Source of the DNA: Candidatus Altimarinota bacterium
GTDB lineage: Bacteria; Patescibacteriota; Gracilibacteria; BD1-5; UBA6164
Reading direction: 5' to 3'
DNA length: 64,000 nucleotides
Assembly (NCBI GenBank): GCA_020629795.1
Contig: JAHDCR010000001.1
Location: forward strand, 152,443 to 216,442
Translations under genes and position numbers: made by a program
Notes under the pieces: model-generated
What the model was told of the DNA's origin: nothing
Database searches by the model: none
Seen by the model: the letters and a program-made list of their open reading frames with translations, nothing else
Part shown: piece by piece, positions 16,619 through 60,816 of the stretch
Position numbering within the stretch: position 1 is the first letter of the stretch
Layout of the letters: each line of letters starts with the position of its first letter

Positions 16619-16641
16619 TACATTGATTCAAAAATAAACAT

Positions 16642-18808: not shown

Positions 18809-18865
18809 AGTTTCATACTAAAAAATATTCTTAGCCTTATTATAGGGAAAATTACAGCAATTCAA

Positions 18866-18893: not shown

Positions 18894-18923
18894 AAATATA
18901 TTAATACCTATTACATATCTTGT

Positions 18924-25002: not shown

Positions 25003-27903
25003 TTAAAATGTTCCTTCAGATGTAGATTCTGAACCAGAATCTGCTTCTGAAACTCATCCAGTATCTACATCTCAACCTGATGATCAACCAGTTTCTGTTG
25101 CTCTACCGTCATTATCATTATCTCAACCATCCCTATCCCTCTCTGGCTCTGGCTCTGGTTTTGGAAGAATGTTCGGATCAAATTCTGTTGAAGTGTAGGT
25201 TCGATCTCTTTCAGAATCATTCACAGTTACTTTACATAGAGCTCCAAGTACACCACACGGAAGACCATTTCTCAGGAAGTTATATCATTCTGCTAGTATA
25301 GGTGGAGCATCATTGAGTAATACAACTTTTTCTGATGGCCCACATCTAATAAGTCCTTGATCATCTGCCATTCTCAGACCACCTTCTGTATTTGTTGTTA
25401 CTACACCAAGATATCTATATGAACTTAATGTAAGCGCTTGTTGACCTAAATCAGAATTCATTCGTTCTTCTTTTGTCGCAAACTCTTGTCTTTGTGTTAC
25501 TTCTCCAGTTGCAGCATTGAAAATACCAATTGTATATTTACCACTTTCTGAGTCAATACCTCACATGATGTATGTATCTTCGGATCTATCTCATGTTTCG
25601 GCATGTTTCAGTCCAAATGATATATCATCAAGAGCAAGGAAATTCGCTTCATTTTCATCCATAATTTCTCCATATCTTTCTGGATTTTCTCTTCTCACTT
25701 CAGCCATGGCACCTGATAGAGTTTTAGCTGATATATTTACACTTGTATCAGTTGCAGCTTCTGCTTGAGCATCGTGGTAGGCTGTATAATCAACTTCTCC
25801 ATCCGCATCAGTATATTCTTGTATATCAACGAGTCCATCTTTATACTCTCTAAGTGCTGTATACCATGATTCTTCTTCGAGAGCTCCTGTTTCTGGATTA
25901 ATATCATAGAGCCTGTCTATGGCTGATCTACTGAGCTCTAAAGTCATATTACCTGACATTATCTCTCATGAAATTCATTCACGAGAAGCACCTGCAGCAG
26001 ATAAATCAAACCAAGTTCGGGTAGTTTCTAGTCTTTGGTCTACAAGACGTGTTCTCCAGTATTCTGGAGTTGATGTAGTTGCACCATCGTAACTAATAGT
26101 TTCTCCAGTATGATCTCTTGTAGATCTATGGGTTGTAACATTTCTATAATCATTTTGGAATGTTCTAAATAGAGTTTTTTCAATAATTGGTCTTCCTCTG
26201 AGTCCATTATTAATTTCTCCACGTACTCATGCTCCATCAACAACAACAGCATCAGGATATCATACTGAAACTCATAGTAATGCTCCGAGAGCATTCATAC
26301 CTGTATCTAAACCTCCTCTCACATTTGCAGCTTTGATAAGCTCACCAATTTGTCCAGATTTAGTAAGATATGAGTCATGTATTGTAGTAATAAGTTTTGA
26401 AGTGTTCTCATCGAGAGTGAGTTTTTCTCCAGGTTGGTCCGCAAATATATCACTGCTCATTTTCACTACCGCAACTACAAGTCCTCAAGTAATTTCATTT
26501 TGTTGTAGGTGAGATCCAGTATCTCCAAAGAATACTAATGCCTCCCTTAGAGCAAGAATTTGTTCTGGATTCATATCCCTCATTCCCTCAATGACAGCTC
26601 TCACTTCTTCTGGATTTGATTCTAAAAGAGATGTTAGTTCAGTATTTGCTCCTCATTGAGTTAACACATTGATGTAAGCATTCAGTTCCTCTTGCTGTAA
26701 TCTTGTGACTTCATTTTGAGCGTCAGTTGCCTCTTCTACTGCTAATCCAGCCGCAAGTCTAGCAGTATTTTCTGCCTCTAAATTTTCATTTGCAACTCGT
26801 TCTTGTACTCTTGCAAGATTAAGTGCTGCTTCAAAGTAATTATCATCATTATCACTCAATATATTATATCGTGTTTCTTGAACTCTCTCAGCAAGTGTTC
26901 CATTTTCTGATGCTCTTCCATAGTTACTTTGAGCAGTATTAAATAGAGCTTGTGCTTCTTCTAGAGACAATCCTGAAACATCTTGATCTAAATCAAAATC
27001 ATTAGTATACCAATTTCGAACTTTTTCTTCTATAGATACTCTGGTAGACTGAGCTTGAGAAGCAGCTAACTGTAGTTGTGAATATTCTCATTCTGATAAT
27101 AACTCTCACTGTCTTTCAGAGACTGCTGCTACGTTTAGTCATACTTTAGCTGCTGCCTCTTCTAATGCTCTAGCAGCTGCTACTGCTGCTGCTTGTCTTT
27201 CTCTGTTTCCAGAATTAGCTTGATATTCAGCGAAAGCAGCTGTAGACATTGGTCCAATAGAACCTGCAGTTCCACCAGTGTCGAATCCAAGCGTGTTTAG
27301 AGCTTGCTGAGCTGCAATCCTATCATCAACTGAAAGAGCCTTAATTTCTTCAATTGAAGAATATTTAGATAGTAGAGTATTTGCATTTGAAACTTTAACT
27401 TCATTTTCTTGTCTTTCTGCGTGAACTTGAGAAATTTTTGTAGAAAGTTGAGAATTAGTCATCTGTATGAGTAATGAAATCCTACTTTGGTCAATAACTC
27501 AACCATCATAATCTGGCATTATACTTTTAAGTACTCTTTTAGTTCCTCAACCTATTCGACCATCTACAACTAATGTAGATTCGTCTGATGCTATAAGAAA
27601 TAGATTCATAATAAATTGAAGTGTTTTTTGTTCTGGCATCGTAGGATTTCCTTCGCTACTATCTGGTGTAATATCTCAAAGTTCACCTGCAATTTCTCCT
27701 GCAAGAGAAAGTTGTCATTCCATTCTTTCTAGAATTGTAGCTTGCATTTCTGCTGGAAGTTCGCTTAAGTCTTGTATTTCAGACAAATTTAATTTTTCAT
27801 CTTGAATAGCCGTATCAACTGTAGTTAGTCCATCTGGTGCCTCTTGGTAATTAGCAACTGTAAGCATAAACATTGCTCTCAAGTTTCTTAGTAGTGTAAA
27901 CAT
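25003..27903 (-). CDS. 966-aa helical protein with peptidoglycan-binding-like segment
   Basis: Built from many frame-consistent pieces separated by TGA. The ATG at 27901-27903 is preferred over an in-frame TTG at 27954. The N-terminus (MFTLLRNLRAMFMLTVANY) is weakly hydrophobic. At about residues 195-225 the stretch AAQQALNTLGFDTGGTAGSI followed by GPMSTAAFAEYQ looks like a peptidoglycan-binding (PG_binding_1) repeat; a looser copy may exist near 105-125 (VDGRIGGGTKRVLK). Long Ala/Glu-rich helices follow (230-430), then a mixed domain and a disordered Glu-Pro/Asp/Gly-rich tail. There is no clear signal peptide. Probably envelope-associated, but that rests mainly on the short motif and neighbours. 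Confidence 0.75.
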
Positions 27904-28045
27904 AATTATATTGTTATTAGTTAAATATATGTTTGCGTTATTTGCCCGAAACAAATTTACTCCTATATGCTAACATATAATAAACAATCTATGCAATAAA
28001 AATAAGTTGACGATATAAGTCTTTTTAGGTATTGGGAATTTTTAA

Positions 28046-37344: not shown

Positions 37345-38481
37345 ATGAAAATTGCTATCCTCCATGAAATGCTCGTTAAGCTTGGATGAGCCGAAAAAGT
37401 TGTTGAAAGCATTATGAAAATATTCCCAGAATCTGATATTTTTACCCTCATATATGATGAAAAAACTGTATGAAACATATTCCCAGCCACACAGATTCAT
37501 TCAAGCTGCAAAAAACTCCCAAGTCAAAGAGTTTATAATCTCACAAAAAAACAACGTCTCTGTCTTCCGTTTATGAAAAAATCCGTTGAACAGTTAGATT
37601 TTTCCAATTACGACAGAGTTATAGTCTCATCTAGTTGATTTGCTCATGGTCTTAAAACTTGAAAAAACACCAAAACTATCGTCTATTATCATGCTCCTGC
37701 CAGGTATATGTGGGACTGGACTCACGAGTATCGAAAAGAAATAAAAATGAACACAGGGATACAATGATATCTCTATGGAAATTTTATGAAAAAACTTAGA
37801 GTTTGGGACTATTATGCTGCGCAAGATAACGATATCTTACTCGCAAATAGCGCTACAACGCAGTCTCGTGTAAAAAAATATTTTAAAAGAGATTCTCAAA
37901 TTGTGTATCCACCAATCGAAACGCAGAGATTTGCAAAACAACTCCCATCAGCTCCTACAAAGCAGTATTTTGCTAGTGATAAATACTATATTATACTCTC
38001 CGCACTTACTGAATTTAAAAAACTCGATATTGCTATAGAGGCATTTAAAAATATCACTGATGCTAATCTCCTTATTATCTGAGCCGGTGAATATAGAAGT
38101 GAACTCGAGAAACTATCACTAAACTCAGACAATATAAAATTTGCAGGAGCACAGTACTGAGATGACTTAGTAGCACTAGTTCAAAACTCCCAATGACTTA
38201 TTTTCCCAGGTGAAGAGGATTTTGGTATAGTACCAATAGAAGTCATGGCTGCAGGCAAGCCAGTGTTTGCATTATATAAGTGAGGGCTCACTGAAACAGT
38301 TCTTGCAGGAAAAACATGAGACTTTTTCTACAATGCTGATGGGTCTGATTTTATTAAAAATTTTAACACCTTTCATGCAAATAATCTAGCCTGAAAATAT
38401 ATCCCGCAAGAGTGCATGAAACAAGCTGCAAAGTATGATACTCGCATATTTATAGATATAATAAAAAATATCGTAAAATAA
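37345..38481 (+). CDS. GT4-family glycosyltransferase
   Basis: 378 aa. The N-terminus MKIAILHEMLVKLGGAEKV has the GGAE-type loop (first Gly as TGA) of GT4 enzymes. The C-terminal Rossmann half has ILSALTEFKKLDIAIEAFKN, the nucleotide-sugar motif in PGEEDFGIVPIEVMAAGKPV (E-x7-E motif) and GGLTETVLAGKTG. It transfers a sugar from a nucleotide sugar to a lipid-linked or surface glycan; specificity unknown. Eleven TGA. It heads a three-gene surface-glycan cluster. Confidence 0.9.
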
Positions 38482-38563
38482 CGCAAGCTAAGGAGAGTAC
38501 TTTGACTTTCTTTATATCATTCGTATTATTTTAAAAATTCTCTTACTCTATACTCACTACTCT

Positions 38564-39904
38564 ATGAAAAACATTCTTGGAATATTTATTTTTCTGCTTC
38601 CACTTCATGCATTTTTAGTCACAGTACTGAAATGTAAATATGGACTAGATACAAACTATATTAGATTTTGGAAAGAGATTATTGTAGTCACTGTCTGACT
38701 ACTGGTGTTTTTCCGAGCTTACGCGCACCATAATTATTCTCTCAAAAGTATGCTTCAAAAAAATACTTTATTTGGCCTCACTCTCGCATTTATAGCCTGC
38801 ACGGCAATATATATGTATTTCCCTTATTTTGAGCTAAAACCAGCATCAGTCCTCGGATTTAGATATGACGCGTTTTTCTTTCTAACATTCCTTATTGGTT
38901 TGTATTGCGGGATGATATGAGAAATAAGATATTTTTTGAAAACTCTCTTTATATCTACCTTTGGTATACTTATAGTATTCTTGCCATGGTATCTATTTTG
39001 AGACATATCAGCGCTTGCTCAAATTTTTTGATATTCCGATGAAGTATCTACTTACACAGCGAATCAATGTATTAGTTTTTCTCAAAATGTAGATGGACAT
39101 CATAGGTTCCAGGCAACATTTGGAGGACCGATTAGAATGTCCGTGTTTTTTACCATAGTTTGAAGTCTCTTTGCTGGATGGGCACTTTCAAGTACAAGGT
39201 TTTCTCAAAAACAGCAGTACGCTATGATGGGAGGCTTTGGAGTACTACTTGCTACAGGGATATTCTTTTCATACTCAAAAACATCCATGCTCGGAGCAAT
39301 GTTTGCTCTCGCAATGTTTGTACTGCTCAGTTATAAATATGTATATAGAAAAAAAATAACAAGGAAATTCTATGCAATTCTCTGAGGAATTGTCTCGCTC
39401 CCTATAGTTTTAGTAGCACTCTTTAAGTGGGAATTATTTCTCCATTTGGGGTCAGTCTTAAATAGGCTCGATAATCTATCAAAATCATGGGAAATGTTCT
39501 TTTATAATCCAATAGGATACGGTCTTGGTATTGCTGGACCAGCAAGTCAAATCGGAAACTCAATTGAGTCAGCAGGATCATGGCAAGTAGCAACTGCCTC
39601 TGTTTTAAGAGTACATAAATTCCTCCCAGAAAACTGGTACGTACAAATACTGCTAGAACAGTGAATTATAGGTTTTGCTCTGTTTACTAGCCTGATAATA
39701 CTCATCTGATATAGACTCATTGATCTCATAAAGAGAAAAAGAGACTTCCTAAGTGTATGAATTACAACTGCATATTTCTCACTGTGTTTTATGGCTCTCT
39801 TTACTCACGCTTTCGAAGAAGCAGCTACGAGTTATATACTCTTTTTCATAATTGGTTTAGTACTTGCTGAAAGTATGAATAGAGAACAAGCATGAAAAAA
39901 ATAA
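38564..39904 (+). CDS. O-antigen ligase/polymerase-like membrane protein
   Basis: 446 aa with about ten or more hydrophobic helices. The layout matches the Wzy/WaaL (O-antigen ligase) superfamily: many helices, then a large outer loop with YNPIGYGLGIAGPASQ and LPENWYVQILLEQGIIGFAL (about 370), where PEN-xxx-LExGIIG is typical of the Wzy_C segment. It probably polymerises or ligates glycan chains outside the membrane. Its stop overlaps the start of the next gene by 13 bases. Confidence 0.8.
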
Positions 39905-41640
39905 AAAATATCTCTCCCAATATACTCCTGTGACTCATATGTCTTATAGGAACTATCTTTCACTGAGCATTTTTGAGTCTCAATGATGTGATGAAAATCG
40001 CAGATAGCTTTGCATATTTACTCATGAGCTATCATTTTTGAGATTTCTCATCACAATGACTTTGAAATGGATGGTTTGGATTTATTTATTCTCTTCCTAT
40101 TGCTCTGGTAAATCTTATTACAAACAATGACTTTCTCGCAGCTCAAATAGTAAATCTCATCCTCCTCAATGTGTCAGCAATCTTGCTTTGGAAAATTTCA
40201 AGAAGTCTTCTCTCTCCCATATATTCACTCTTTGTAATAGTCCTATTTTTTCTCTCTCCGACACTCCTACATTTTAACATACATATTCTCACTGAAAATA
40301 TATATATACCTCTTTTTTTGGGGCTTTTTATTTTATTGCAAAAGTTAATAGCCAAACTCCACCCCCTCCGTCCTTCGGACACCTCCCCCTTACATAAAGG
40401 GGAGCTAAGACCTATTATATATATTGGTTGCATGATTGGACTTATGTACCTCACACGTGCTGAGGCATTTATATACCTCTCTTCGATTGGAATAATATCT
40501 CTCATCTTGCTCTTTCAAAAGAGACTCAGTATATGAAAATTTTTCTGATATGCTGGAGTATTTTTTATAAGTTTTTTCATATTTATATCTCCCTATCTTA
40601 TCTATCTCAATGGACTCACAGGAGAATGGGGACTCACAAATAAATGAGCTAGTAATCTCAGGCAAGCTGAGCTGAGAGGACAAGAAAAGATGGACGATGC
40701 CTGATTTGAGCAGGCTGTAGCAGAGCTGACGGCTGATAAACACCATCTCATCGCTGGTTTTGCTGGTGGAATGCCCTATGATGCACCATCGATAGAATGA
40801 AGTCTCTGAGAATATGTGTCAAAAGATCCAAACGCATTTTTCAAAAGAATTATGAGCAATCAAAAAAAGCTCTATACTCAGAACTTTCCTGAAATAATAC
40901 TCTGAAAGTCTCCAAGTCTGTACTACTGAGATGATAGTAGATTTTCAAATATATTTTTTCTCCTCTACTGCCTGGTTCCATTTTTAGTTTTAATATTTGG
41001 GATATATAAAGTATTTCAAAAACAGAGAGATTTTTTTGTCATTACAATTGCGTTTTTTATACCTGCAAGCATATTCTTTACTCTCTTTTTTACGCTCAAC
41101 AGATATTTTCTCATATTTCTTCCTCTGATTTTTATAACGCTATGATTTGGGCTCTCACAAATACGTATCTGAAAATACAGTAAACTATTACAAATCTGAC
41201 TCTCTGTGCAGCTAGTATCTCTCCTACTACTCTCTACGCTCGTATATTACAATACCGAGTCACCAAAAGATGACTATTACAGACTCAAAAAAACTGCTGG
41301 GGAATGGTTACAAAGTTATTGTACTCAAGAAATATCTCCAGAAATATGCCCAAATAGTAGTACTCTCGATCTTAAAATTATGGAACGTTTTCCAATTGTT
41401 AGCTATTACAGTGGTTCAAAAACTCGTTACATCACTCCGTATACCAACGATATAGCAGATATTTATGAGTATGGAAGCTACCATAATATAGATATTCTTG
41501 TGGTAGATACTATGGATTTCAAGACCTACAGACCAGAACTTAGTATATATCTCGACACTACACCAGATAATTTCATTCGACTCCAAGAGTTTACAAATCC
41601 AGAGTGACAGAAAGTAATTTTGTATCAGCTTAAAAAATAA
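39892..41640 (+). CDS. PMT/ArnT-like membrane glycosyltransferase
   Basis: 582 aa with about ten or more hydrophobic helices, a soluble C-terminal domain, and the layout of GT39/GT83 dolichyl- or undecaprenyl-phosphate-sugar transferases. The first outer loop has the acidic SLNDVMKIADS. A GC-rich palindromic element sits in frame near residue 155-173 and adds a peptide LHPLRPSDTSPLHKGELRP. The C-terminal domain (about 450-582) is soluble. About 18 TGA codons. It overlaps the preceding gene (ATG inside its last codons) and ends at a terminator. Confidence 0.75.
40355..40412. repeat. GC-rich palindromic element inside a coding region
   Basis: Two hairpins in a row: GTCC-ttc-GGAC (about 40369-40379) and CTCCCC...GGGGAG (about 40383-40404). 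The base composition (C-rich, over half GC) is unlike the surrounding AT-rich gene. It keeps the frame and lies in a loop between membrane helices. It resembles the coding palindromic repeats (RPE-type) of Rickettsia and REP-like elements. Confidence 0.7.
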
Positions 41641-41678: not shown

Positions 41679-43832
41679 ATGAAAAAAATCCTGAGCATTT
41701 TGATGATACTAGGAGTTATGTTATCAAGTATAACACCGGTACTTGCCCAAAGCACTTACTCTGACTCTCTCCCAAGAGTCCAAAAAGCTATTGAAAAGAT
41801 GTCTCCAAGTGAAATTATAAATTTTCAGCAAAAAATAGCAGACCTCATAGTTGAAAATGAAAATCAAGAAATAAAAAACTTTCTTAAAACCATCCTCCTA
41901 CTTACGGCAGACTATAAAACAGAATCTGTTCAAGATATTGAGCCTATAGTAAAAGAAGTAGAATTTGAAGAAAATATCACAGAAACACCTAGCTACAGTC
42001 AGTTGAGTGAGTCTGCACAGAGAGCTGCAGAGTATGAGATATCAAAACTTCAAGGGAACCTCAAAGACGAGACTACATCTCTCCTCTCTCAGATTATTAG
42101 TTCGTGGAACTCCCTCACAAACTATACAGAAAAATGAAGTATGACAGCTGAGATGAATATGAACATAGAGGATTTTGGTTCTGCTACAGCAGGGATGGAT
42201 ATCTCAGAATATATAGCACAAAATCAGAGTTTAGATAGCTCATTTTCTGCTGATATAAGTGGGTATTTCAATGCAAGCTCTAGATATGCTGATCAAGTAG
42301 AGTTTTCTGGAGAAACTGATTTAGAATTTATTCAAAAAGAACAAAACACCTACCTCTTGATGAATAATACTCAAATGAGCTCAAGTGATGAATCTATCGA
42401 GATCGAACTCACTCCAATGATAGAAAAACTATCAGAGCTGGCTCGTGATAACACCTATATATCTTTTGGTAATGAAAATTCATTTAACCCACAAGACGTA
42501 CTCGCATACTTTACGCAAGACAATATAGAGTCAGAAATAAATATGCTGTTTTCTGAAAATCTTATGGAGGTATATGGACAAAATGAAAATTGATATCTCC
42601 TCAGACCTACAAAACATTTTTGTGATACAGGAAAAAGACTCACAAATGTATTTGATCCATTTAATGGAAAAGAGTGTAGTGAAAAACAATACCAAAATAT
42701 GCTCGAGGATTTCATGGAGTCAGGAGTAGATATTACTCTCTCTACAGGAAACGAAGTAAAACTCAGTATATCAAACCTTTCAGATGTAAATGCGTATGAA
42801 CTCATCGATATAGAGCTCACATGGAAAAATGCAAGCTTCCACGAGCTTACTATGGTGATGATAGATAGCTATGATGCAACAGAATATATGAACGTTCATT
42901 ACATCGCAAACGATAAACTACAAATCCACGTTCCAGAGCAGCCATATGATCCAGAGTTTATGCTTGATGTAGAGTTTGATAGATATGGAGGGATTAAAAC
43001 CATAGATCTCACATCAAGCTTTGAAGAAGAAGTAGTATTTATCTGAAACTATAATAATGGCTCACTTACTACGAGCTTAGAAATAGATACTCCAGATATA
43101 CAAGCATCATGTAGTTTTATGTGAGACGCGTACCAGAGCTATCTCAAAGTTGATGGTTGATGTGAAATATCATCATATCTCATAAATACTGACAGTCAAA
43201 CACTTACGATAGAGAGCTCTATCCTCTACAATGGAGTGAGCTCGAGAAATGATTTCAATTGGGATTTTCAGGCCGTTTCAGATAAAGACAACTATCTCGA
43301 TTTCAATATTAAAAGTTCAGCACAGAGATTGAGCTCTGGAAGCTATGAAATCAAAGCTCCAACAAGCACTATAGACTATCTAGATTTCCTCAAAGAAGTA
43401 TCTCCTGAAAGTAGAAGCTACTATGATGATTATAACTATGAAACAAATTATGAGTACGAGTACCATACCTATGACGAGTATGATGAAGCTTGTTATATCT
43501 ATGATTCAGGAGACACTACCTGTTACGAGTACCATGACAATAAAACTGTAACATGTAATTATATTGCAGAAACTGGAAAAGAAGCTTGTGATACATATGA
43601 GTATGGATACTCTTTAGAAGAAACATCATTTGATGATTTTGATAGAGTATGTTACAACTACGATAGTGGAGACAGGACCTGTTATGACTATTATGATGAC
43701 AAAGACATCACTTGTGAGTATCTCATCGAGACAGATGAAGAAACATGTGAAACATACGAGTATGATACCTATAATTATTACTATGATGAAATAGAGGATG
43801 CAGAAGAAGTTAAAGATGCAATGGAGCAGTAA
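41679..43832 (+). CDS. Secreted protein with Cys/Tyr/Asp-rich C-terminal repeat
   Basis: 717 aa. Signal peptide MKKILSILMILGVMLSSITP ending about VLAQ. A long domain (about 25-590) of Ser/Asp/Glu-rich helices and beta strands follows; no family recognised. The C-terminus (about 580-710) holds two ~53-residue repeats very rich in Tyr, Asp, Glu and Cys, each with YxYDSGDxTCYxYxDxKxxTC and CxTYEY patterns. Cys spacing is the same in both copies. An acidic tail ends the protein. It is its own unit, between two terminators. Might bind metal or form cross-links by disulfides or Tyr; that is a guess. Confidence 0.8.
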
Positions 43833-43918: not shown

Positions 43919-43958
43919 CCAAAAAATGCCTCTTCCTCAAGGAAAAGCCATTTTTTAA
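43919..43958 (-). terminator. Terminator of the giant gene
   Basis: Minus strand AAAAAATGGC... with inner stem TTCCT/AGGAA and pairing AAAAAATG/CATTTTTT, followed by T-rich sequence, 14 bases after the stop (43972-43974). Confidence 0.6.
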
Positions 43959-43971: not shown

Positions 43972-46900
43972 CTATCTGAGTATATAACTCGCATTTGTTT
44001 TAAAGAGTATATCAGCAACATCACTGTTATCAGAGAGTTTCTGGAGTTTGAATCCTGCATACTCACCAAATGATGTGTATCTGAGCCTATACTGCGTCCT
44101 ATCTAGCTCTATACGACCATCTGCAAATATAGTCATAAGTGGAATCTTGTTAGTATCACTTTGAGAGAATACAGCCAGACTTCATGGATTATAGGCAACT
44201 CATAGTGGGACACTAAAGCTTCCATATTGCTCAGCATCTACGAGCTTCATGTAGATACCAGTGTCTTCTGCTCTATCAAGAGAAGATACTTGCCTCACTC
44301 TGCCTTCTGGCACCTTGAGGAACTGTTTAAAGACTGTTTGCCCGAGCCTCGTTACAAGTATTTCTGGATATACAGAAGTATTATCTGGATTATTGGTAGC
44401 CAAGACTCTCGTAGTCACAAATGGATCTACGATATCTACTCGACCAGTATATTCATCGATATTTGCTATAACAGATCATGAGTATGTGAGCTCTAGTCCA
44501 TCTGTATTGCTCGATGTTTCAAAGTTATAGTTTCAAATATCATCTGTAGCTATCACATCCTCTCCATCAGCTGACTGAAGCTTCTCTATCACTCATCCTC
44601 TATATCTATAGAGCCGTACCGGCTCATCTATGAGATCCTCATCTATCACTCACGTTATGATAGTATCGTCGATATCTATAATACTTGGAACTGGAGGATA
44701 TACCTCAAATGGAACTCGTTTCGTTGCCAAATTTCCATTATCATCAGTCAGAGCGATGATGATATCTCTCTCAAATATTGAGTCATATGGACCAAACTCT
44801 ATAGAGATTTTTGTAGCTGTTTGCGAGATAATAATATTTTCATCATCTCTATCATTTGCTGGATTTCCATCCTCATCATTATCTGTGAGGAGATCGAAAT
44901 CTACCCAAACATCAGATATACCAGAGAGACCACTATCTTCATATATATATGGAGTCAGATCAACCTCTTGAGACTGATATACTGGGATTCTAATTTTTTG
45001 ATTGAGTCCAATCTGAGGAGCGAGTCTATCTGCCTGAGTTTGTGGTGAGAGAAGAATCTGATGAGAAAGAGTAGAATCAATATTTTCTGCAAAGCTATGA
45101 ATTCTTGCATAGTAGAAGTCATTTTCTACTTGTTGCCTAATGGTATAATCACTACGTGTACTACTTCATAGGTCATAGAGTGTATAGCTCGTAATATCTC
45201 TCATATCTAGGAATACCTGAGAACCATCATAATATCTAATATCTATATGGTCATTTGATCAAAGTAAATCTTTATTCCCATTAAAACTGATTTTCGCTCC
45301 TGGGAGAATTGGCATACCAATATGGTCTATAATATCTGTATCAACGATATCCTCATTTATTTCGAGAGAGACATACGCGTCTCAGCTCAGAGCAAGCACC
45401 TCAACTGGACGAGTGAAACTGAGAGTTTTGTATCTCGCGAGATTTACTTTTTTTTCTTCAGTTTTTCAGACTCTATAGGTCAGTTCAAACGGAGATCCAC
45501 CAGAGTAAATATGAGTGTTTGAAGTAAGCGTTATGAGCTTACCTGCCTGTAAATCATCTCTCAAATTTATGAGTTTTTCTGTTGTGAGTTTTGCTCATCT
45601 AATAGCTCAAGCGTATGAGATTGTTGCGAGATGCTCCGTAACTTCATAATCTTCATTTTGCGAAAGTATTGGAAGATCATCCATATCTGCTATTGCATCA
45701 ACCACATGTGTCTCAACTGTTTCTGGAGTATAACTATCACTATCATCCAAGTATCTATCTACTATAGTATGATATGTAAGTCTAAAGTTTTTAAGAAGGG
45801 TATTCGTTGGCTTTGTAAAAATAACATTCATATATCCATCACTTACTGAGGCTTCTCTAAAGCCATTTACAGATTCATGATACACATCACCATTATAAAA
45901 TTCATTATCTCCTGGAGACACTATCAGTGGTGGAAGAGAAATATAGTTCTTAGCCTCAGTATTTTTTCTATTTTCTTTGAAATATAATTTTCCATTTGTG
46001 AGATAGAAAACATCATCATCTCCATCATTATCACTATCTACAAGTTCTATTTCTTCATTTCATTTTAGGTGATCTACATAGTCAAAGAGCCTATAGTTTT
46101 TATCGTCTTGGAGAACATAGATTCCTTCGTACACGTATTCCATTGCTCCATTTCACTGACATACTCATCCTGCTGACTCACTTGCAGGAGTATCACCTCA
46201 GACTGCTGATAAGAGACTTGACTCTTGGTATGCTGTGAGACCTCCTCTCACTCTATTCATAATACTCTCCCCCTCAGCTTTAATATCGCTTGCAAATAAT
46301 TTACTCTCCTCACTCTCTCCACTCACTAGAGCAATTGCAGCATCAAGAGTATCTTCATTATACGCTCTAAGAGATTCATCATACTGAGCAAATCTATCTT
46401 GAGAATCTAGAGATGTTTTTATAAATTTTTCTGGAGTTTCTAGATTTTTAAGGTCATTTTGCTGCTGTTTTGAGTACTCGATTTCATTTCTGAGAATATC
46501 TTCAAAAGTATCAAATTTAGCTTTATTTTTATTTCTCAGTTCATCAATAAAGTCCTGCTCTTTTGTATATCTCATGTTACTCACCTCTTGCCAGAGATTT
46601 TGAATCTCTGCCGTTCTTGGATTGCTTGTAAAACTACTACTTGCAAGACCACTATTTACGTAGCTTATAAACTCTCTGTTTGTCATAGTTTCATGTGCGT
46701 TTTCTCACATATATGTAATAAGCTCTACAAATTTTGCGCTGAAGAGTCCAACAAGTGTCAGGATAGATTCTGGATTTTCATTCAGTGGAGCAAATGATAT
46801 ATCAGCCTCAATAGATCCATCAGATTCTAAATCTATATCGATATTTTCAGGAACTGACTCTACGAGATTGATATCAGAAAGAGAAATATCAAACATATTC

Positions 46901-49900
46901 ACTACATTGTTAGTGAGGTCATCTATAGGAGCTGTAATAGCTCTTACAGCCTCAAGGAGGAACTCCATTTCAAACTCTAGATTTACGTAAGTTGTAACCT
47001 TGATAGCTGAAACAGCAGAATATGAAAATGCTGGTGGTTGAACATCAATAAAGTCTGTTGGGAGATATCCGTTTCTCTCCGTTAGGAATGCTATCTGATC
47101 ACCTGCTCTCCACTCTGGTACAAACGGTGACTGTTTGAGGAAACACATTGCTTTGGTAATCAGTTTTATGATATTGAGCATTCATTCAACAGCACCAAAG
47201 AGTTTTGGTATTTTAGGTGGTGGTGGTAAATCTGGTAGCTCTACAGTAGGGAGACTTGGGAGCTCAGGAAGTTCTGGAAGCTCAAAAGTAGGAAGCGTTG
47301 GGAGTGCTGGAAGTGAGAAGCTCGCGTCAGGTACATCTGGAAGTTGTAATTTTGGAAGAGTCGGTAATACTATAGGACGTTTATTAATCTCAAAATCTGG
47401 CATATACACAGTCAGACCAGCACGAACATTGTGCAAGTCGAGAATAATATCTGGCCATTTAGGGAACTCTATAATAGGAGCTGAAGGTATCGCAACAGAA
47501 ATGAGTTTAAAAGTAAAGTTTTGTAGGTCTTGTCTTTCATTTTTACACTCATGACACTCCGCTTCGTATCCAGCAAATACATCTATAAATAACTGCCATG
47601 ATTTTAAAATAGCTTTTATAAGGAGATAGAGCTCAACCCAGGCTTTGAATCTCTCTCCATTAGTATTTATCCACTCACCCATAAGTTTCGAAATAGCTTC
47701 GACATTACAAAGTATTTGCTCAAGCCATACTTCTTTTATATTTACGAGTTTTGCAAGCTTATCAGGAAACTCTTTATATTCTTCGAGTATTTGTATATTT
47801 CTCTCAAGCGAATTTACAAACTCTCTTGCTTCTAGAGACGCTTTATCTTTGATGTCATTTTCTTGCTCACATCTCGCTATTTGAGCTGGAGTTCATTCAC
47901 AGGTAGCTCCTGACGACCAAGATCGTGATTTTGATTCTACTTCAGCCTTCCATTGCTCTGCAGTAATTTTCCAATCGAGAATAAACCTATTTAATTCGAC
48001 TTGCTCCATCCATGGAACATTTACTGAAATAACTTCTGATTCAACATTTAGTAGAGGTATATTTCCCATAAATTCATATACCTCTCTAATTCATGAAAGA
48101 GTTTCTTTTCCACTATTTCCATATTGTTGTCACTGTGCTGAAATGATTTTTAGATCAATTGATTTACAGGCTAGAGAGTCGCTACCAGAACAATCAAGAG
48201 TAGATTTTTGAGCTCTCAGCGCATCTATACTTGCTTGAGACTCTGCTCTGTCTGATCAAGAGTTTTCTTTTCAATCATTGAATGCTTCTGAAAGGCCATC
48301 TCAAAAGTTATCGAAACTAAAATCAAATATTCATCAAAAATCTGGAAGTATCACGAATAACTTAGGAAGATTGGTAAGTTTTGAAGTTATCTCATCTAGC
48401 TGTCTTTCTACCCAGTCCATCATAAATCAAGGGAAAGCTGCCACTCTCGTGTTTTGTATATCAACAACATCTCCATTTCCAGTAAAAATAGCTGATGGAT
48501 CAATATCTACAGATCATCACATAGCAGTAGTTCCTCCACCTCATATATTTATAAGTGGTTCTGTTGGAAGTATGTAGTTCGCAGCTCACTGATCAGCTAT
48601 AGTAGAAAATGAATCTCTATAATTCTCATAGAGTCCAGTAGGTTGCACTCAAGTTTCTAGATACTCTAGGTACTCACGTACAAACTCAGACTCAATTTGA
48701 AGAGGAGTACGCAAGTCCTCTTGCGTAGTGCCATCACAATTAGCATGTATGAGTCCAAAACCATTTCCAGGATATGGATATCAGAGTACTCAGGGATCTC
48801 ACTCTCCTCACTCACAGCTCATCAGTGGCATAGCAGCAACAATACAATTTCATCCAGGAACAATTGGATGTACTCATCGAGGGTTTCCATTTCCAGCTAC
48901 ACTCGCTGGTCACCCAAAACATACTGCAATACCAAAACCACCCGTGAGAGTTGGAGTAGCAAATACTCTCACAAAATTAGTAGCTGAATTTGTTCCAAGT
49001 CTTCAACCAGCTCCTGCTGGTCATCCACATCGACCATCAAATTTATTTGTGGACATTGGGTATGCGGTAGGTACCTCAAAACACCCAGAACTTGTATATA
49101 TTGATCTTCAGGTTAATGCTGAAAATATAGGTACACCTTCTCAAACTCTCAGACCATCACCAATAGGGTTTCCAAATAATGTTGGATCATTTCATGGAGC
49201 GAGTGGAGCCCAGTTGAGAGGTGTTGCTATACACGAACCTCCTCAGAATCCACAACTCAGTCACTGTATCAGCTCATCTATATCTTCTGATATCTCATCA
49301 ATTGCCTCATTAATATTATCTAGGGCTCACATAAAGTCTGTAGCACCACTAGTATTATCCATAGTATCATCACTATCTGGAATCCCGTCTCCATCACTAT
49401 CTACTCATAACTCAGTCAAGATATCGTCACTATAATCTCTTATTCTGTCTAAATCAGATGCAGATATATCATCAACATTTTCTGTTGCTCCTGCATTTTG
49501 CGCTGACGATAATAAGTCACTAATATAATCAGGAACACCATCTCAATTTGAGTCTTCTATATTTCAAAACTCACTTCATACTTCGATATCACTCTCTCTA
49601 CACTCAGGAACCGTTGTTCCTCACTCATATGATCTCACATCTGTTGATCTATAAATATCTGCTTGTGCTCAACAGTTTTTTTCATCTTCTTTGAGAATAA
49701 TATCTCCATAAATATCATCTCATAATTCTCACTGTTCATAGAGTCAAACCTGTAAAAATCAATACGAAAGAGGGAGAGTTTCTAATTCATATCGCACAAT
49801 AATTTCCTCTCCTGGTTCTAAAAAGAATCCATCCAATAATATACTGTAATTGTTAATTCCAGGGTTTCGAATAACTTCTAGATTATCCTGCGTGAGTACG

Positions 49901-52900
49901 GTAAATGTATTTGAAGTAAAATGAAAATATTTAGGAATACTGTCAACATATGCAACGTTGTTCTTTCTTGTTGCGCTGGTATTTTTTATACTAATATCAT
50001 AATAAACTCTGTCTCATGATTGTAGGAAATCTGGACTTGTATCCGTAAATGTTTTTGAAATTTCTATTCCTTGCTCCTGAGCATATTGTCATCTCAGAAA
50101 ATATGTTTCTGTCTCTTGCACTGACTCAAATCAAGTATACGAAATATAACTATCGTAAGAATTTAAAAAATCATTAACGCTAGCAGCAGTAGCATCTGCT
50201 GCCTGTGAGTCACTTGATAACTCTCCAACTAATCAGTCACTGACTATTTGTCCATTTGTTCTATTTTCTAAGAATCATTTTGGAGTATATGGAAGAGATA
50301 GATATAAAAAGCTCTCAACCAGAGATTGATCAATAAACTCTGGAGTAGGCTCATCTACCCCAGCAGCTTGAGCATCTGCTATCTCTTGGAGATACTGCTG
50401 AGAATTTGTGAGAATTTGAGTTGCTCTATCGTCAGATAGCTGTACTAATCCATCAAAATATACTCATCCACCATGATTGGTAGCAATCTCTGACAGCTCT
50501 ATGGCATATCCGTCACCAATAAATTTCTTTGTAAAGCTAGGATTGAGTGATGGACCATTACCATAAAAAATATGTATTTGACCTGCATCATCAAGCGTCA
50601 CTATATCATCTCTACCATCAGCGTCCATATCAAAAGTTTCTGCTTGTATAATCGCTCAACTCAGTGAAATACTTTCTGAAATATCAAACCTAGCAAAGTC
50701 TTTTTGCACATTGTTAAAGAGAGCTGGTTTCCCATTTTCTGTCACAAAAAATATATCATCATGTCCGTCACCACTAAAGTCTCATGTTTCTACTAATCTT
50801 ACTGATCAACCATCAGCTGCAAATACGAGATCTCTTTGGTATATATAATCACCATGTATATCTTCATTTTCATACAACGAAACATAGCCATCTCTATGAA
50901 TCGTAAGTACGTCTTGACGTGTATCATTATTGTAATCTAGAATTTTATATCAAATGAGTCCATCATCTGATTCTATCAAAGTCCCAATAGTAGAATCAAA
51001 ATATTTTTCTTGCGTCGAGTTATTAAAAGTATTTATAAGAGGCTTGAGAGAGATAACTGGATCTCATAAATGAACCAATGAGAAACTATGGAAATTCTTT
51101 GATGCTTCTCAAACAGATTCACCAGCAGCAAAGTTAAGCAGCGCAGTATTGCTATCTTGCCAGCCAATTCAAGCCTCACTAAGTGTAGACTCTATTCCAG
51201 AAATATCATTATTATGAAACTCATCGAGTGAGTATCTACTCGCAAAAGGATCTTGATAGTATACACTCAGTGAACTATTTTGTCCGTCATCTTTCAGTCT
51301 TGTTGAGTACTGATTTGAAGAGATATGAAGTATGATGGTATTTTCAAGCGTTGCTAGTTTTGCATCCAAAAGTGTAGTATCACGAGTAACATTTGTTTCA
51401 AATCTCCCTCCTATAGTCATGTGCGCAACATAATTTTGACCATCCATTATTCGGAGTTGCAGTCATGGATTTATAGAATCAGCATCTATTTCTAGATACG
51501 TAGAACCCTTTCTTGTAAATCGCGCATCTTCACTGATCTCAAATACAACTTGGCCAGTCTCTCAAAGTATTTGTATTCCACTATTATTTTCAGATATAGT
51601 GTAGTTTTCATCAACAGGATCAATTGTTATCTCAGTAGCACGTGAAGTATTATAATATCATCTCCCCAGATAGGTCTCAAGAGCATTATTATGTATATCA
51701 ACAATTATTCTTCCCTCACTATCTATGTTTGGTTTTAGCTCAATATCCTGACTAATATCTCCAGAATATAATCCTCGCAGTGTACCTGATTGTTCTATCA
51801 GTAGCACATCATGAAATTTATAAGGAGTATTTAAAAGACTACTTACTGCAAGAGCTGCATTTTCTCTATCAAATAAAACACTTCCTGCAAGATAGTCTTG
51901 TTGGGTAAAATCACCATACTCTGCTCATAACATCATAGAATACATACTGTTGTATGCATTTCATGAAATATTTTCCTTATCCCAAAAGAAAAATGTTTCT
52001 ATACTCCCCGCATTTTTTCATAAACCATTTACACTAAGACTATTTGTTTCATCCCAAAAATCTGAAAGTCTATCTCAAATAGTAGTAGGGAGAGAGTTAT
52101 AATCTTGAGAGGCTTCTAATATAGCTTTAGAATAATATTTTGATAAAAATTTAGTATCAGAAAATACTGTGAAAAATTTTCTCCCGGTTTCTGTAAGCTC
52201 TCACTGAGCAGTAGTAAAGCTTGGTATAGTTAATCTCTCTTTATCAAATGGAGCTTGTCCAATGAGTTCAAAACTATTGTTTGCAAGGTCAGGATCAGTC
52301 GATACCGAAAAATATCCAAGTCATGGAATATCAGTACCAGAAATCTCAAACTGAACTTTTCAATTTGAGCTCACCTCTCGCGTTGATCAAGCTGTGATTA
52401 TATCATCACTTCTTGGGTGTATTTCAAGGTTGATAGCTGTCGCATTATCATTAAATACATCATTATTATACCTATCTTTTAAAACAGCTTCTAAAATCGA
52501 GGAATCCTCACTACTTGCCTCTATCTTATCTCGTGATAATCTCAAGTCTACCTTTATTGGTACTTCTGGCAGTATAGTAATATCTTTTCTGTAAATATCT
52601 ACTCACCCCTCTAATTGAACTTCTATACTAATATTTTTTCATGCCAGAGTAGCTGTTGTAAACGATATCTGGGCTCTACCATTTTCAACCATAACATATG
52701 GCACATCAACTCTTCCATATATACTTGGTACTGTAAGATATACTCGTGAGTTCAAATCTGAAAGTACAGCTCAATTTATATCATTAAATACAATATCATA
52801 AGTGTATTTTCAACCTCCTACTTTTGGAGTATCTCAAACGAGCGTTAGTTCTGGAACTATTTTCTCAATAGTTCTTATACTGAGAGATTTTCGCTGTATT

Positions 52901-55900
52901 ACCTGACCAGAAAGATTTTTCACCTCAATTTCCAAAGTATTATTATCCTCTCTATTGGTACTTGAAAGTCTCATTGCTTTGTATCACTCTATAACTTGAT
53001 ATTCGATTTCTTTTGCTCCGTTATCTGTAAAAGTGAGCCCATCTCAACTCAGAGTAGCTTGCACAGTATAAATCTCTCCACTTGCAGCATTTCAATATTG
53101 ATCAAGTATATTTATAAGATGAGTTGATATATTTCACCCCGTCTCAATAATATTACTACCAAGAATGACATCAATATTACTCGCACTATCTGGCAATACA
53201 TCAAACACTCTATAGCTGTGAAAGTTTTCACTGTCTCTCACATGAACTTCATATCTTCATGAAGTAGAAATATTCAACAGGCCATAAACTGATTCTAAAT
53301 TTCACTGAGAAACTTCCTCCTGTAAGAATACTCTTTCACCAGAACGAAGTACTTCTATACTCAGTGGATAATTTAAACTAAGATTGTTTCAGGCTCTCGA
53401 ATAGTTTTGAAACATAAGTAAGAGCTTCTCCTTTGCCTGAGAGAGAGTATCAGCTTGAAGTACAGCCTCTCAAAGACTTGCACTGTTTGAATCAATAGCA
53501 CATACATTTTGCTCAGACGATGCTGTAATAGTACTGTCAATTGTGTACCTAGCATCTTCTCAGACTCGATATCCACCTATAAAGAGCCTATCTCATCTAA
53601 TTCCTACTTCTAAATCATTACTTTCTAAGCTAATAGTAACGTTTCAATCTATATCTCTTGTTTCTAGTTTTGCATTAAATGTGATATCAGCATCTTGTCA
53701 CTTTCCATAAAAGTAGGTTTTTGTTTTTCATCTCATTGAGCGTATCTCAGCATTATTGTAGCTAATATACTGCTGAGCTTCCTCTAATGCCTCATCAGTT
53801 GAGAGTTCTGGAATAGTAATATCATAAATGACTTTTTCATTTGCGCTATCAAACTCTAATTCAGAATCTTCCGGAACAACAACTCGAGATATATTGTGAG
53901 AGATATAGCTACTACTATCAAATTTAGCGAGCTCTCCTGCATTTGTAATAGTCTGAGAAACTATCGTTCAAGTGGTGAAATAATAATACCTTCACGAATC
54001 TGAAAGAAGCTCAAGCTCTCCACCAATAAGATTCTGCTCTAAACAGTCGTTTATTCCATTTTTATTATCATCTTTATTACATGCGTCAATCTCTGCTTGC
54101 TCCTCTTCGGTGAACAGTGATTCTCAACAGTTACCATCAGTAATTTTAATAGTTGGAGGCAACATTTCTGTGAGCCAACAAATAACAGCAGGGATCCACT
54201 GGAAAATATTCACTCCATCTGGTGGAGCACACTCAAAAGTAGGTTCATCTAAAGACTCATCTCACACATTAGCTCCAGCAATAGTAGTATTGAGCGATAT
54301 GTACTGAGAAATAATATCAGCATATGGATGTATTCCTTTGAGCTCTGGATCAAGTTTCACATACATATTTTGAGCATCACCTGGAGCTGCAAAATATGCT
54401 ATTTCATATGATTTCTTAGATTTTGGAAGATGGAAATTATAATCATTTCACTCAAACTGATTTGAAAGATATTCCTCAAATATGAATTTATATTTTGAAG
54501 CGACGCTATCTAAATTATTCCAATAAATTGAGAATACGAGAGTATCGAAGTATGATATTTCTTTACTCTCATTTTGGAGAGTGAAAACTTCAAGTGGTTT
54601 ATTTTTTAAACTTTCATATAAATCAATATTAGCTTGAGGGAAGTCTCCTGTTTTTAGAATATTATAAATACTTAATTCCTCTCCTGTTAAACTACTTGGA
54701 TTTGAGTCTAATATAGTTGCATTAATTTGATCAGAAATTGTATCAAGATATTCCTTTGTTACTTGCTCTATATTTTCAAGACTCAAGTTATTTGGATCAT
54801 TTCACTGCACCCTAAATAACTGAGGAAAATCTATTCTCTGATATCCATACTCTGGAGCAGGTCAACCTGCAGCTCATATAAAATCTATATATCTATCGCT
54901 GTCAATTGGGAGAGACGGTGTAAATCGAGAATTTATTTGAGCTCCAAACTCTTCATCCGTAGGAGATGTATGTAAAATATCAGATGGAATAGTTTTATAT
55001 TCATAGCCAGTTAATGGTGAGACACATGAATTTCATTCTGAACCCTCACTAAATTGAGTATTAAGAGTCCACTCAGGCTTAGAAATACCATTGACTGTAT
55101 ATGTTTTATTAACACATGATGTTCCAACTATACTCCCTGTACTTGATCAAGATTCATTTAAATCAGCGAGAAATACTCAAACATTATCTCAAATATCATT
55201 ATTTTCAGATGCACAGGTCCAATTAACAGCCCTCGCTCAATTAATAGGGACAACAATATCTGTAATACAATCCGTCCCTCCATCATTATCTTCTCTAGTA
55301 TGTTTTTTTAATGTTAAAAATGTACTTACTTCTGAAAAACAATCCAAAGGACTAGGATTTAGAGATGCATCTTCAACTTCTTTTGATCATAAAATATCAA
55401 ATATTGGTCTAATTGCTCCATCAATATTTGATTCATTTAGCTCTAAGTTCACAAATGACCCCTCTCATCACGTAAGTCCAGCTGGTGAGTTTCCTCCCCA
55501 ATATCATTCTAATCATCTATATACTCATCAATCATTACTTCTCATTTGCCCTCAACATAAAAGGACATCTTCATCAGTATTATTAATATTATATCCACGA
55601 TTTGCCTCTACAAGTGTTCAACCATTAGTATTTCCTCTGTATATACTACATTGAGAAGCCTGAGTAATCGTATTTGCTTGCTTACCAGAATAAAAAGATG
55701 TATATACTGATATATCACAAGCACCTCCTATGGTTTTAGATACAGGAAGCATAATATCTCTTGAAAGACCATTTTGCACCAAATCAGTGATTTGTTTTTC
55801 TAGTGATGTATTCACATTTTTTATAACCTCACTACTTACCTGGTCAAGTACTGAAATGAGAAACGGAGGCATATCCATATTTACAGTTGACGCATTTTGA

Positions 55901-56955
55901 TTATATCTCCCAGCATTATACACCTGTTTTCTCATTTCTCAGAGAGTAGAACCGTTAAATACTTCTAATAATTTTTTAGTAGAATTATCTGTTATATACC
56001 TCGTAAGTATATCTGAAGAGCTTTGCGCGTTTGGAGAATTTTGAATTCCAGAAATATCAAAATCTGGATCTACCTCTGCGAGTAAATCTGCTATATCTGC
56101 ATTTTGCACTCAAAGTATTTTTTCAGATACCTTTTCAGCAAGTTCTTTAGAATATCTGTTATATGTAATGTCTTCGATATTTTCTAAATATGATTCATAA
56201 CCGATATAGTTCTGATATTGGAGTGCCTGATTTTCTCTGAATTGATCATAATAAAAAACATATGGTTCATAATCATCCTTTGCTGGTGAAAATAAACCAT
56301 CTAGGATTCATTTTTCTTGCTCAAAAACTCCCTCTCCAGTATAAAAGTCATGATTTTTATCAAAGAAATCTTCAATTGCTTGTATGTCATCATCTTCATC
56401 TCATGTGTTTGGAGAAATAACCCCATGCCATATCTCAGGAGAAAGTTTGGTATCTGAATCAGTATTTTTTTCATATTTCCCTGATTCATGATTATAGACA
56501 TAAGCCTTATCAACAAAATCAATATATGGAAGCATTGTTCTCGATGAATCAGAACCATCAAAAACAGTTGGGAGTGGAATCTTTCACACAAACACTGTTC
56601 ATATAAGTCGAGATTCATAACTGACATCGGAAAGCGAATTATATCATTCTAGATAGAGAGACTCTCCAAGCGAAGCAATATCTATAACGCTCGCATCTGC
56701 TGGAGTTGGGAGAATCACCACTCTTGTATTTTCCAGAACTCCTTGAATATCTCGAGAATATCTCACGAGCTTTGTACGAACTTCATCATATGTATCCTCG
56801 TCAACTACAATAGATACAAGATTTACAAACTCTTTTTCAAGCGCGTAAGCTCGTGACCCGAAAAAAAGCTCCATTGGTATTTGAAGCGTAAATGAAAACA
56901 TAAGTGAAAATATCAGCAAAAACGAAAGGATTTTTTGGATTTTTTGTTTCCACAT
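43972..56955 (-). CDS. Giant secreted surface protein (4327 aa)
   Basis: One reading frame, ATG 56953-56955 to TAG 43972-43974. I split the whole interval into codons and found no TAA or TAG. Signal peptide about 1-39. Rough order: a 500-residue N-terminal region; an Asn/Ser-rich beta region with Ig-like domains (Big_1-like RLSRDKIEASSEDSS near 1475); FG-GAP/VCBS-like repeats with DYNNDTRQDV, DFSGDGHDD, DMDADGRDD (about 2000-2130); a DUF11-like segment (about 2290-2360); Asp-rich DSDGDGIPDSDD (about 2520); a Cys/Gly/Pro-rich block starting near 2560 (CIATPLNWAPLAPGNDPTLFG-like, similar to blocks I recall in other CPR giants); coiled-coil helices; a PELPxLP repeat (about 3200-3260); SDNDGDDDV (about 3640); Ig-like C-terminus. 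No LPxTG or C-terminal membrane anchor. Probable adhesin. Confidence 0.88.
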
Positions 56956-58797: not shown

Positions 58798-60816
58798 TTA
58801 ACTATATAATTCTAAGTCTTTTGTGAGTTTTTCAACGTGTTTTTTCTCTCCTGCAATAAGTATTCAGAGATATTCAATATCTTCTATATTTTTACTGACC
58901 GTATTTTGTGAAACCTTTTTATCATCACTTGTCTCAAGCATTTCTCGCGTAAATGGAACTACTTCGAGTCAACCATTTTTTGCGATGTTATACAGTTCTT
59001 GGATTTTATTATTATTTTCAGCCTTTTTTATCATAATTGCATGCTGGATATTCATAGGAATTTGTACTCCATCAGCAGAAGTAGCACTTTCTGTTTCAAA
59101 GAGATTATTTCATCTCGCAGCATAACTCGCTGAGAGGTGCGCTATAGTATTGAGCTCTTGCCACTTTTCTAAATTAGAATCATTATTAAGAATAGAAACA
59201 ACTAATTGTGTTTTCTGAGTTTTAGTCTCATTTGTGTCTGGCTTCATAAGTGGAAAGAGTACAACATCTCTAAGATTTTCTTGCCCAGAAAGTAGAGAAA
59301 CTATTCTATCAATTCACATTCCCCATCCTGATTGACATGGCATACCGTACTCCATTGCCAATACAAAATCATCATCTCATGATGTAGCCTCCTCATCTCC
59401 AGCCTCTAGTGCTCAAGATTGTTCATCAAAATTTTCTTGTTGGAGTTTTGGATCAACCAGCTCACTATAGGCTTTAAGAACTTCCCATCCGTTAAGCACT
59501 AATTGGAACTGTTCTACGATATTTTCATCGCTATCAGAGGCTCTTGCGAGAGGTTGCATCGTCTTTGGGTAGTTATATACAAATGCAGGACCAGTAATAC
59601 TTGGACGAAGTACTTTTTTGTATAAATAATCTATCATAGTAGCCGTAGCCTGTTTCTCCATTCATTCCCACTTATATCCCGCAGCCATGATGTCTGCTCT
59701 AAATCTATCTTCATCAGCAGCACTGTAAGAATCTATGTCTATTCATGACTTTTCTTTTACTCCTGCAATGTAATCAATTCTCTTCCATGGAGTCGTAAAA
59801 TCAACTGTTTTAGCATTTCCATCCTTATCTATTACTTCTCTTTTCCTCTCTAATCATAGAGTATCAAAAATATGATCAAACATGTCTTCTGTAAACTTCA
59901 TATTATCTTCAAAGTTCCAGTATGCAGCATAGTGTTCAAACACTGAAAACTCTTGCATATGAGAAGGGTCAGAGCCTTCATTTCTAAAGTTTTTACCCAT
60001 TTCAAATACTCTTTCAAATCGTCCAACGGTAGCTTTTTTGAGACCTGTTTCTGGTGCGATTCTCAGGAAGAAGTCTTCATCAAAGTCATTATGATGCGTT
60101 ATAAATGGAGCAGCAGCAGCACCGGAAGCTGAGTTTCAAAGAATAGGAGTCTCAATCTCTATAAAGTCATGTTGCCAGTAAAACTCTCTCACTGCTTTTA
60201 TGAGTTCGCTTCGCATTTTAAATCGGTCAAAACTGTCCTCATTCATAATAAGGTCCAAATATCTTTGTCTGTATATTGCTTCTTGATCTTTTATTCCATG
60301 CCATTTTTCTGGAAGTGGTCTCACAGCTTTTGAGAGTATTTGCAGCTCAGTCACAAAGAGAGTAAGTTCTCCATGCTTTGTTTCAAACAAGTCTCATTTA
60401 ACCCCTATATAGTCACCAACTTGGCAAAATTTTTCTGCAATTTTGTAGGCAGATTTTTCTTCTCCAGCTATTTCTATACTCTCAACTATTTCTCTCCCCG
60501 TATTAAACTTGATGAGGTCTCTCATGAAGCTCACTTGCAAGTCTCAGCTATGGTCTCTGAGCTTTGCAAATGCAAGTTTTCCGTGAGATTTATGAGTTAT
60601 GATTCTCCCTGCAGTTTGAAATTCACTGATGCTTCATCCTGCCATAAGATTTTCAATATCTCTTATATATCATCCTTCTGTATCATTTTCACTTCGTGAT
60701 CTAATTTCAGCAATATCTATCTTTCCGTGATAGTTATTTGCGTAACAAATAACTCCAGCATCTTTGAGATCCTGAATCTTTTTCATTCTGTCTTGCGATT
60801 CTTTTGAGTAGTCCAT
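58798..60816 (-). CDS. lysS: Lysyl-tRNA synthetase with C-terminal DUF2000 domain
   Basis: 672 aa, longer than the usual ~500. Residues 1-530 are class II LysRS: N-terminal OB fold (GRIITHKSHGKLAFAKLRD), motif 2 ERVFEMGKNFRNEGSD, PAFVYNYPKTMQPLA, and motif 3 GMGIDRIVSLLSG. From about 535 a second domain begins after PDTNETKTQKT: QLVVSILNN, ELNTIAHLSASYAARG, QIPMNIQHAI and EYLGILIAGEKKHVEKLT. This matches the DUF2000 family, which has a peptidyl-tRNA hydrolase 2-like fold. No stop or restart separates the two. The DUF2000 part might act on tRNA or an aminoacyl product, inference only. Confidence 0.92.

Follow-up and report, generated by a model that had tools for sequence, protein, structure and literature searches.

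A giant secreted protein conserved across most of the class Gracilibacteria is a candidate scaffold of the cell surface

Introduction

Does a 13-kb open reading frame in the genome of a BD1-5 bacterium encode one giant protein, and is that protein a factor by which the cell contacts its host? The frame lies in the stretch of DNA analyzed here (64 kb; hereafter, the window), and a sequence-only reading proposed that it is a single gene for a surface protein, a strong candidate for host attachment or contact. We examined the gene, its product, its orthologues and its genomic neighbors, and we propose, at a probability of about one half, that the protein serves, in low copy, as the structural scaffold of a surface or contact apparatus peculiar to the class.

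Results

Gene structure and reading frame

The giant gene occupies one frame on the minus strand, from an ATG at 56955 to its end at 43972, and encodes 4327 aa under translation table 25.

43972..56955, minus strand: giant open reading frame, table 25, single copy (open reading frame list, TGA/Gly test)

The frame holds 128 in-frame TGA codons, read as Gly, and no TAA or TAG; at its own composition, the chance of such a frame lacking TAA and TAG is 3.3 × 10−108. The plus strand over the same interval is full of stops. These results agree with the initial description of a single 13-kb gene of 4327 aa free of TAA and TAG, to which we add the strand, and the share of the window that it fills (20.3%) is the fifth first estimated. 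The standard code would break the frame into ~130 pieces, 21 of which reach the 60-aa cut-off, close to the predicted number of about 20. Use of table 25 is supported by the columns in which the gene has TGA, where orthologues low in TGA carry Gly in 53% of cases, compared to a background of 8%. The gene is present once in the source genome (1.11 Mb, 95% complete) and accounts for 1.2% of the DNA of this 1.1-Mb genome.

Misassembly or an overlooked stop codon had been named as what could overturn the claim of a single gene. Intact frames are found in independent assemblies, one of which is the complete, curated genome 28_42_T64 (L055/L079), and together with the probability given above these orthologues rule out an artefact or a chance frame. 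Because orthologues that use the standard code are open over 4000–5800 codons and collinear with the window gene, an origin of the frame in the alternative code or in misassembly is excluded. We regard the existence and conservation of the gene as near certain.

Protein anatomy

The following parts of the protein were recognized (window coordinates).

56842..56955, minus strand: residues 1–38, Sec-type signal peptide with a conserved Q-K-x-x-S-x-x-L-I-F-S-L-x-F-S motif (hydropathy, conservation)
55276..56826, minus strand: residues 44–560, N-terminal alpha/beta (Rossmann-like) domain of no Pfam family, conserved class-wide (AF2 model, Pfam, alignment)
54001..55008, minus strand: residues 650–985, second conserved block of the N-terminal model, with Cys 909/926/943 (AF2 model, alignment)
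52291..53439, minus strand: residues 1173–1555, invasin-type Ig-like modules (weak profile match to 4e9l, E = 1.4 × 10−4)
51046..51993, minus strand: residues 1655–1970, conserved region ending in GEAxKxYxSFSxxNLGDPVxSL (GDP motif; conservation)
50431..50949, minus strand: residues 2003–2175, three FG-GAP repeats with conserved D-x3-D-x3-D Ca-type loops (PF13517)
49606..50067, minus strand: residues 2297–2450, DUF11-like Ig domain (in the window protein, under the Pfam cut-off; the AF2 model has beta strands of good pLDDT)
49276..49608, minus strand: residues 2450–2560, acidic Asp-rich linker, 31% D+E (composition)
48721..49275, minus strand: residues 2561–2745, Gly/Cys-rich block of no known family, 21% Gly, 8 Cys, several of them invariant (composition, alignment)
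47521..48303, minus strand: residues 2885–3145, long helical hairpins with C-x-x-C at the end, in the best-conserved core (AF2 at moderate to low confidence, conservation)
47200..47487, minus strand: residues 3157–3252, Leu-Pro-rich spine (LPxLPxLP...PPPPK) with prolines near-invariant class-wide (conservation)
46921..47199, minus strand: residues 3253–3345, PEWxAGDxIAxxTERxGxLxxDF block (conservation)
43975..46143, minus strand: residues 3605–4327, C-terminal region with further Asp loops (PKD/Ig-like matches in single members only)

The signal peptide noted earlier is evident as a hydrophobic stretch at residues 9–27 followed by A-x-A near 36–38. FG-GAP is the sole family above a curated Pfam cut-off in the protein (PF13517, 32.1 bits against a cut-off of 26.9, in three stretches), and it was matched in 23 of 23 orthologues. 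The Asp triads of its loops (D2007/2011/2015, D2059/2063/2067 and D2109/2113/2117) are 94–100% conserved across 53 orthologues, and the FG-GAP-like and Asp-rich, Ca-type parts of the first description thus stand, as does its Cys block, with 8 Cys in 2560–2745. The Ig-like parts fared less well: PF01345 (DUF11) reached 17–18 bits in the window protein, short of its cut-off of 24.6 and of membership in that family, and the invasin-type Ig modules were recovered by profile. A Pfam match to CsgA at 3448–3502, below cut-off and in a helical stretch of low conservation, was taken as chance.

Together, the FG-GAP and DUF11 parts make up less than 10% of the protein. Its best-conserved blocks, namely the N-terminal alpha/beta domain, the Gly/Cys domain, and the helical and Leu-Pro-rich core, belong to no known family, and the Leu-Pro spine is probably polyproline-II like. 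The AF2 model of the N-terminus has a pLDDT of 73.7 overall and mostly 80–96 over the first 470 residues, and that of the core is weak (56.5). Foldseek found no PDB match at E ≤ 0.001 for either model, and a PDB profile search returned FG-GAP and invasin-type Ig only, the remaining matches being coiled-coil-type.

The protein is strongly acidic (net charge about −364) and contains 33 Cys. A sequence scan detected no LPXTG motif, lipobox or C-terminal transmembrane segment, and the protein therefore has neither a sortase anchor nor the mark of a lipoprotein, in keeping with the earlier remark that no anchor was visible. Pfam likewise gave no match to SLH or any other S-layer domain. The signal peptide, the Ca-type FG-GAP loops, the Ig parts, the disulfide-type Cys and the lack of a cytoplasmic domain argue well for the surface protein first proposed, whereas its retention at the surface is putative.

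Sequence evolution and codon usage

Compared with the orthologue of the same genus (L067), the protein has no internal indel of at least 15 aa along its whole length, and identity per 100 residues ranges from 36 to 86%, with minima near 500, 1800, 3500 and the C-terminus. The gene contains one 42-bp repeat in 2 copies, and no tandem domain array of the RTX/BapA type was found in it. This pattern of indels and repeats is not that of mosaic adhesins.

Codon adaptation of the giant gene is average (rank 14 of the 27 window genes), which disfavors a bulk coat protein and suggests that the product is probably not an abundant coat. TGA makes up 39% of its Gly codons, compared to 32% in the other window genes and 6% (4/63) in ribosomal protein genes, a reference consisting of four genes only. 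Separately, TGA as a Gly codon seems to be avoided in highly expressed genes (6% in the ribosomal genes of L231 7397–9582 vs. 32% in other window genes).

Distribution and descent

Another 52 genomes with intact contigs have collinear orthologues of ~4000–5850 aa. In the BD1-5 genomes among these, the orthologue is one open reading frame of 4011–5306 aa that aligns end to end at 29–67% identity. The same architecture recurs at 20 more distant loci within the class, of which 19 can be read throughout in the standard code (3985–5845 aa, one of them truncated where the extracted stretch ends) and one, from Absconditabacterales, needs table 25 (4169 aa). Two BD1-5 orthologues are longer than the rest by ~700–1000 aa: L047 (G016) 3021–18119, of 5032 aa, and L062 (G045) 3091–19011, of 5306 aa.

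Residues 1–2000 used as a query gave a match in 78 of 79 close relatives. A profile of residues 2285–3350 matched at least 196 of the 288 genomes of class Gracilibacteria, a lower bound since a broader core profile detected the gene in a few genomes that had seemed to lack it, and almost none elsewhere in the phylum; the broader profile matched 23 of 381 phylum genomes, comprising 21 in the class and 2 marginal cases outside it. Across 53 class-wide orthologues, 130 positions are at least 93% conserved, most densely at 3101–3300, and this conserved core and the end-to-end collinearity make the window protein a member of the class-wide family. Loci that carry names belong to Candidatus Gracilibacteria, with Peregrinibacteria and Absconditabacterales at the edge. 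By these searches the family appears restricted to the class, where it spans BD1-5, Absconditabacteria and Peregrinibacteria-type lineages. Three families (f7, f10 and f16) mostly lack the gene. Near-complete genomes without it occur in f7 and f10 (e.g., G079, G082 and G117), and those tested also lack D3, a gene described below; G117 (f7) has a weak core match (E = 1.4 × 10−12) in a 1063-aa frame.

In the gene tree, the two BD1-5 families each form one group, Absconditabacterales is their sister, although this single row sits on a long branch and its placement is less sure, and the standard-code rows lie apart. These groupings fit vertical descent and a gene older than the BD1-5 code change; most simply, the giant gene would predate the recoding of UGA to Gly in BD1-5. 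A giant gene in the standard code would then have survived recoding and, across most of the window's family, gained 100–300 TGA codons. Its product looks like an ancient core component of the cell surface and not a one-off adhesin.

Genomic neighborhood

In the source genome the giant gene stands alone, with a hairpin after its stop and a convergent gene downstream, and is part of no operon.

43930..43947, minus strand: terminator-like hairpin just past the stop of the giant gene
41679..43832, plus strand: convergent gene for a 717-aa secreted Asp/Tyr/Cys-rich protein of no Pfam family, recurrent beside the giant gene in BD1-5

The upstream genes (mscL, tauE and lysS) are common to close relatives only and therefore uninformative. 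Several other window genes are worth recording. Genes at 37345..41640 (plus strand) for a glycosyltransferase, an O-antigen-ligase-like protein (Wzy_C) and a weakly PMT_2-like protein adjoin the giant gene and form a possible surface glycosylation cluster. The gene at 20015..24766 (minus strand) encodes a protein of 1583 aa in which four DUF11 stretches pass the cut-off; its codon adaptation is high (0.70), and it may be an abundant surface protein. That at 25003..27954 (minus strand) encodes 983 aa, has fairly well-adapted codons and shows a weak peptidoglycan-binding match. At 58798..60816 (minus strand), a 672-aa protein of the class II (D/K/N) aminoacyl-tRNA-synthetase type, probably LysRS, carries a C-terminal DUF2000 (E = 3 × 10−22) and looks like an unusual fusion.

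The distant loci are arranged differently. In 16 of 20, the giant gene heads a same-strand operon with genes that we call D1, D2, D3 and often D4, and the first gap is mostly below 110 bp. D1–D4 encode small secreted proteins; the representatives scanned had no Pfam family above cut-off, and the idea that they are paralogues of the giant core was rejected when hhalign found no homology. Homologues of D2 (1.7 × 10−6) and D3 (2.6 × 10−8) also follow the giant gene at the Absconditabacterales locus. In BD1-5 genomes they lie at other loci (D3 in 56 of 70 genomes, D2 in 33 of 70). The D2/D3 matches in the source genome are weak (E = 3 × 10−6, 7 × 10−7); its D3 (L207:5530-7149, 539 aa) precedes a gene for a 434-aa secreted protein, a pair that recurs in four other BD1-5 genomes, and a profile comparison of D3 with D3' gave homology at 99.4%. 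Of 15 genomes that carry the giant gene, 12 have D3, compared with 0 of 30 that do not carry it; the in-class genomes of the second kind belong to few families (f7, f10 and f16), and the co-occurrence therefore reflects only about three independent losses. The conserved order and the co-occurrence indicate that the giant gene and the small secreted proteins were ancestrally linked, with the operon apparently broken up in BD1-5, and make D1–D4 defined candidate partner genes.

Discussion

We propose that the giant protein provides, in low copy, a structural scaffold for a surface or contact apparatus specific to the class, which we hold to be the best reading at a probability of roughly 0.5. 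The conserved collinear architecture, the lack of large indels within the genus and the ordinary codon bias point to such a scaffold. After export by Sec, the protein would take the shape of a long rod of several domains, given stiffness by Ca2+ loops and disulfides. The most constrained part of it, the helical and Leu-Pro core, would offer an interface on which the small, helical secreted partners D1–D4 assemble, and these could keep the giant protein on the cell surface in place of a membrane or sortase anchor. The whole would be a low-copy, non-diversifying scaffold, and the faster-evolving Ig and C-terminal parts would meet the host. Given the poor core model and the lack of a significant PDB match, the proposals of a rod and an interface are drawn from sequence.

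A role in host attachment or contact, as first suggested, is plausible for the protein, but a variable adhesin is not the best fit, since the cores are near-invariant and there is neither a repeat array nor domain turnover within the genus. A usual host-attachment adhesin, that is, a ligand-binding protein exposed at the surface and devoted mainly to recognizing the host cell, ranks next after the scaffold, although we think it rather unlikely. Ig/DUF11, FG-GAP and invasin-type matches are common in adhesins, giant proteins of the related predator Vampirococcus have been attributed to attachment (PMC8080830), and Gracilibacteria proteins with VCBS repeats were detected in a metaproteome (PMC11452946). 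Against this stand the solitary two-copy repeat, the lack of large indels within the genus, the single conserved copy across most of the class, and best-conserved parts that are cores of no family and not adhesin-like modules.

It is doubtful, and a lead rather than a result, that the giant protein is a surface component of a divergent patescibacterial type IV secretion system (T4SS), in the slot of a missing PrgB-type adhesin. In Absconditabacterales, the giant operon is closely followed, on its own strand, by three tandem TrbL/VirB6-like genes (847, 619 and 791 aa; L239 4458-11264, minus strand), and TrbL-like homologues lie ~17–19 kb downstream of the giant gene in four standard-code genomes. 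PF04610 support for these proteins is, however, marginal (E = 3.7 × 10−4, below cut-off), no TrbL-like gene occurs in the 64-kb window or the BD1-5 flanks, and VirB4 was not identified near the giant gene. In the standard-code genomes, moreover, genes that we take from their first residues, not from profiles, to be uvrA-, recF- and thrS-like intervene. According to PMC12102498, divergent T4SSs occur across Patescibacteria, no PrgB-type adhesin was found, and Microgenomatia and Gracilibacteria have little or no VirB6.

A main S-layer or bulk coat protein would also be secreted, acidic, single-copy and class-wide with Ca-type loops, and S-layer proteins or domains have been reported in BD1-5 and Peribacteria. 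We nevertheless judge this very unlikely: average codon usage and a TGA share of 39%, against 6% in the four ribosomal genes, are unlike those of a very abundant protein, the 1583-aa DUF11 protein of the window is clearly better adapted in its codons, and no S-layer family was matched in Pfam. A secreted C25 (gingipain-like) protease or other alpha/beta hydrolase built into the giant scaffold is hardly credible, for although the N-terminal model has an alpha/beta fold and the motif VLVGxIPLP...PYxDF and the GEAxK...LGDPxxSL end presumably recall C25 enzymes (a lead only), no Pfam hit is common to the 32 members, PF01364 had no match in 40 genomes in a search whose positive control was also silent, no C25 entry is among the 50 fold matches listed, and no class-wide Cys-His pair was recognized.

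Several large proteins described from related lineages invite comparison with the scaffold candidate. Those of Vampirococcus lugosii, from the sister lineage Absconditabacteria, share its size class and inferred surface location; by size and description, the only terms of the comparison, the longest has 4163 aa against 4169 aa for our Absconditabacterales orthologue, and the source gives them integrin-, DUF11- and fibronectin-type domains in a list of its ten longest proteins, not as an orthologous family (PMC8080830). The huge proteins of Candidatus Peregrinibacteria exceed 5000 aa, have no COG and come from a host-associated lineage, comparable to our standard-code orthologues of 5011–5845 aa; the survey, as far as available, gives no family grouping and no link to BD1-5 (PMC11573180). 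Cys-rich extracellular proteins of Ca. Peribacter riflensis are likewise very large and secreted, with two annotated as FG-GAP, but form a multi-gene set with ~7% Cys, several of which vary between strains (PMC4736985), whereas the giant protein is single-copy, has less than 1% Cys and is poor in indels within its genus. The PTD-repeat protein of Gracilibacterium 28_42_T64 is of the same class, extracellular and proposed to act in attachment, but it is repeat-based and hypervariable (PMC6851277), and the same genome also has a giant orthologue (4171 aa, L055). FG-GAP/DUF11 repeat proteins (PF13517, PF01345) share the three FG-GAP repeats and the one DUF11-like Ig, modules that are a minor part of the giant protein, whose best-conserved cores are of no family. 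In the literature searched, from which supplements and preprints were outside scope so that priority is not certain, we found no description of the class-wide family or the operon.

More tentatively, the giant protein and D1–D4 might form an undescribed, class-specific surface machine, tied to the divergent T4SS, for docking to and feeding on host bacteria, one that predates UGA recoding in BD1-5; we rate this as rather unlikely, about as probable as the adhesin. The family may unify the Vampirococcus giants and the Peregrinibacteria huge proteins without COG into one orthologous family. Its single copy and class-wide collinearity suggest that the giant gene is central to the lifestyle of Gracilibacteria, and the family offers a concrete target for studying how these bacteria contact their hosts.
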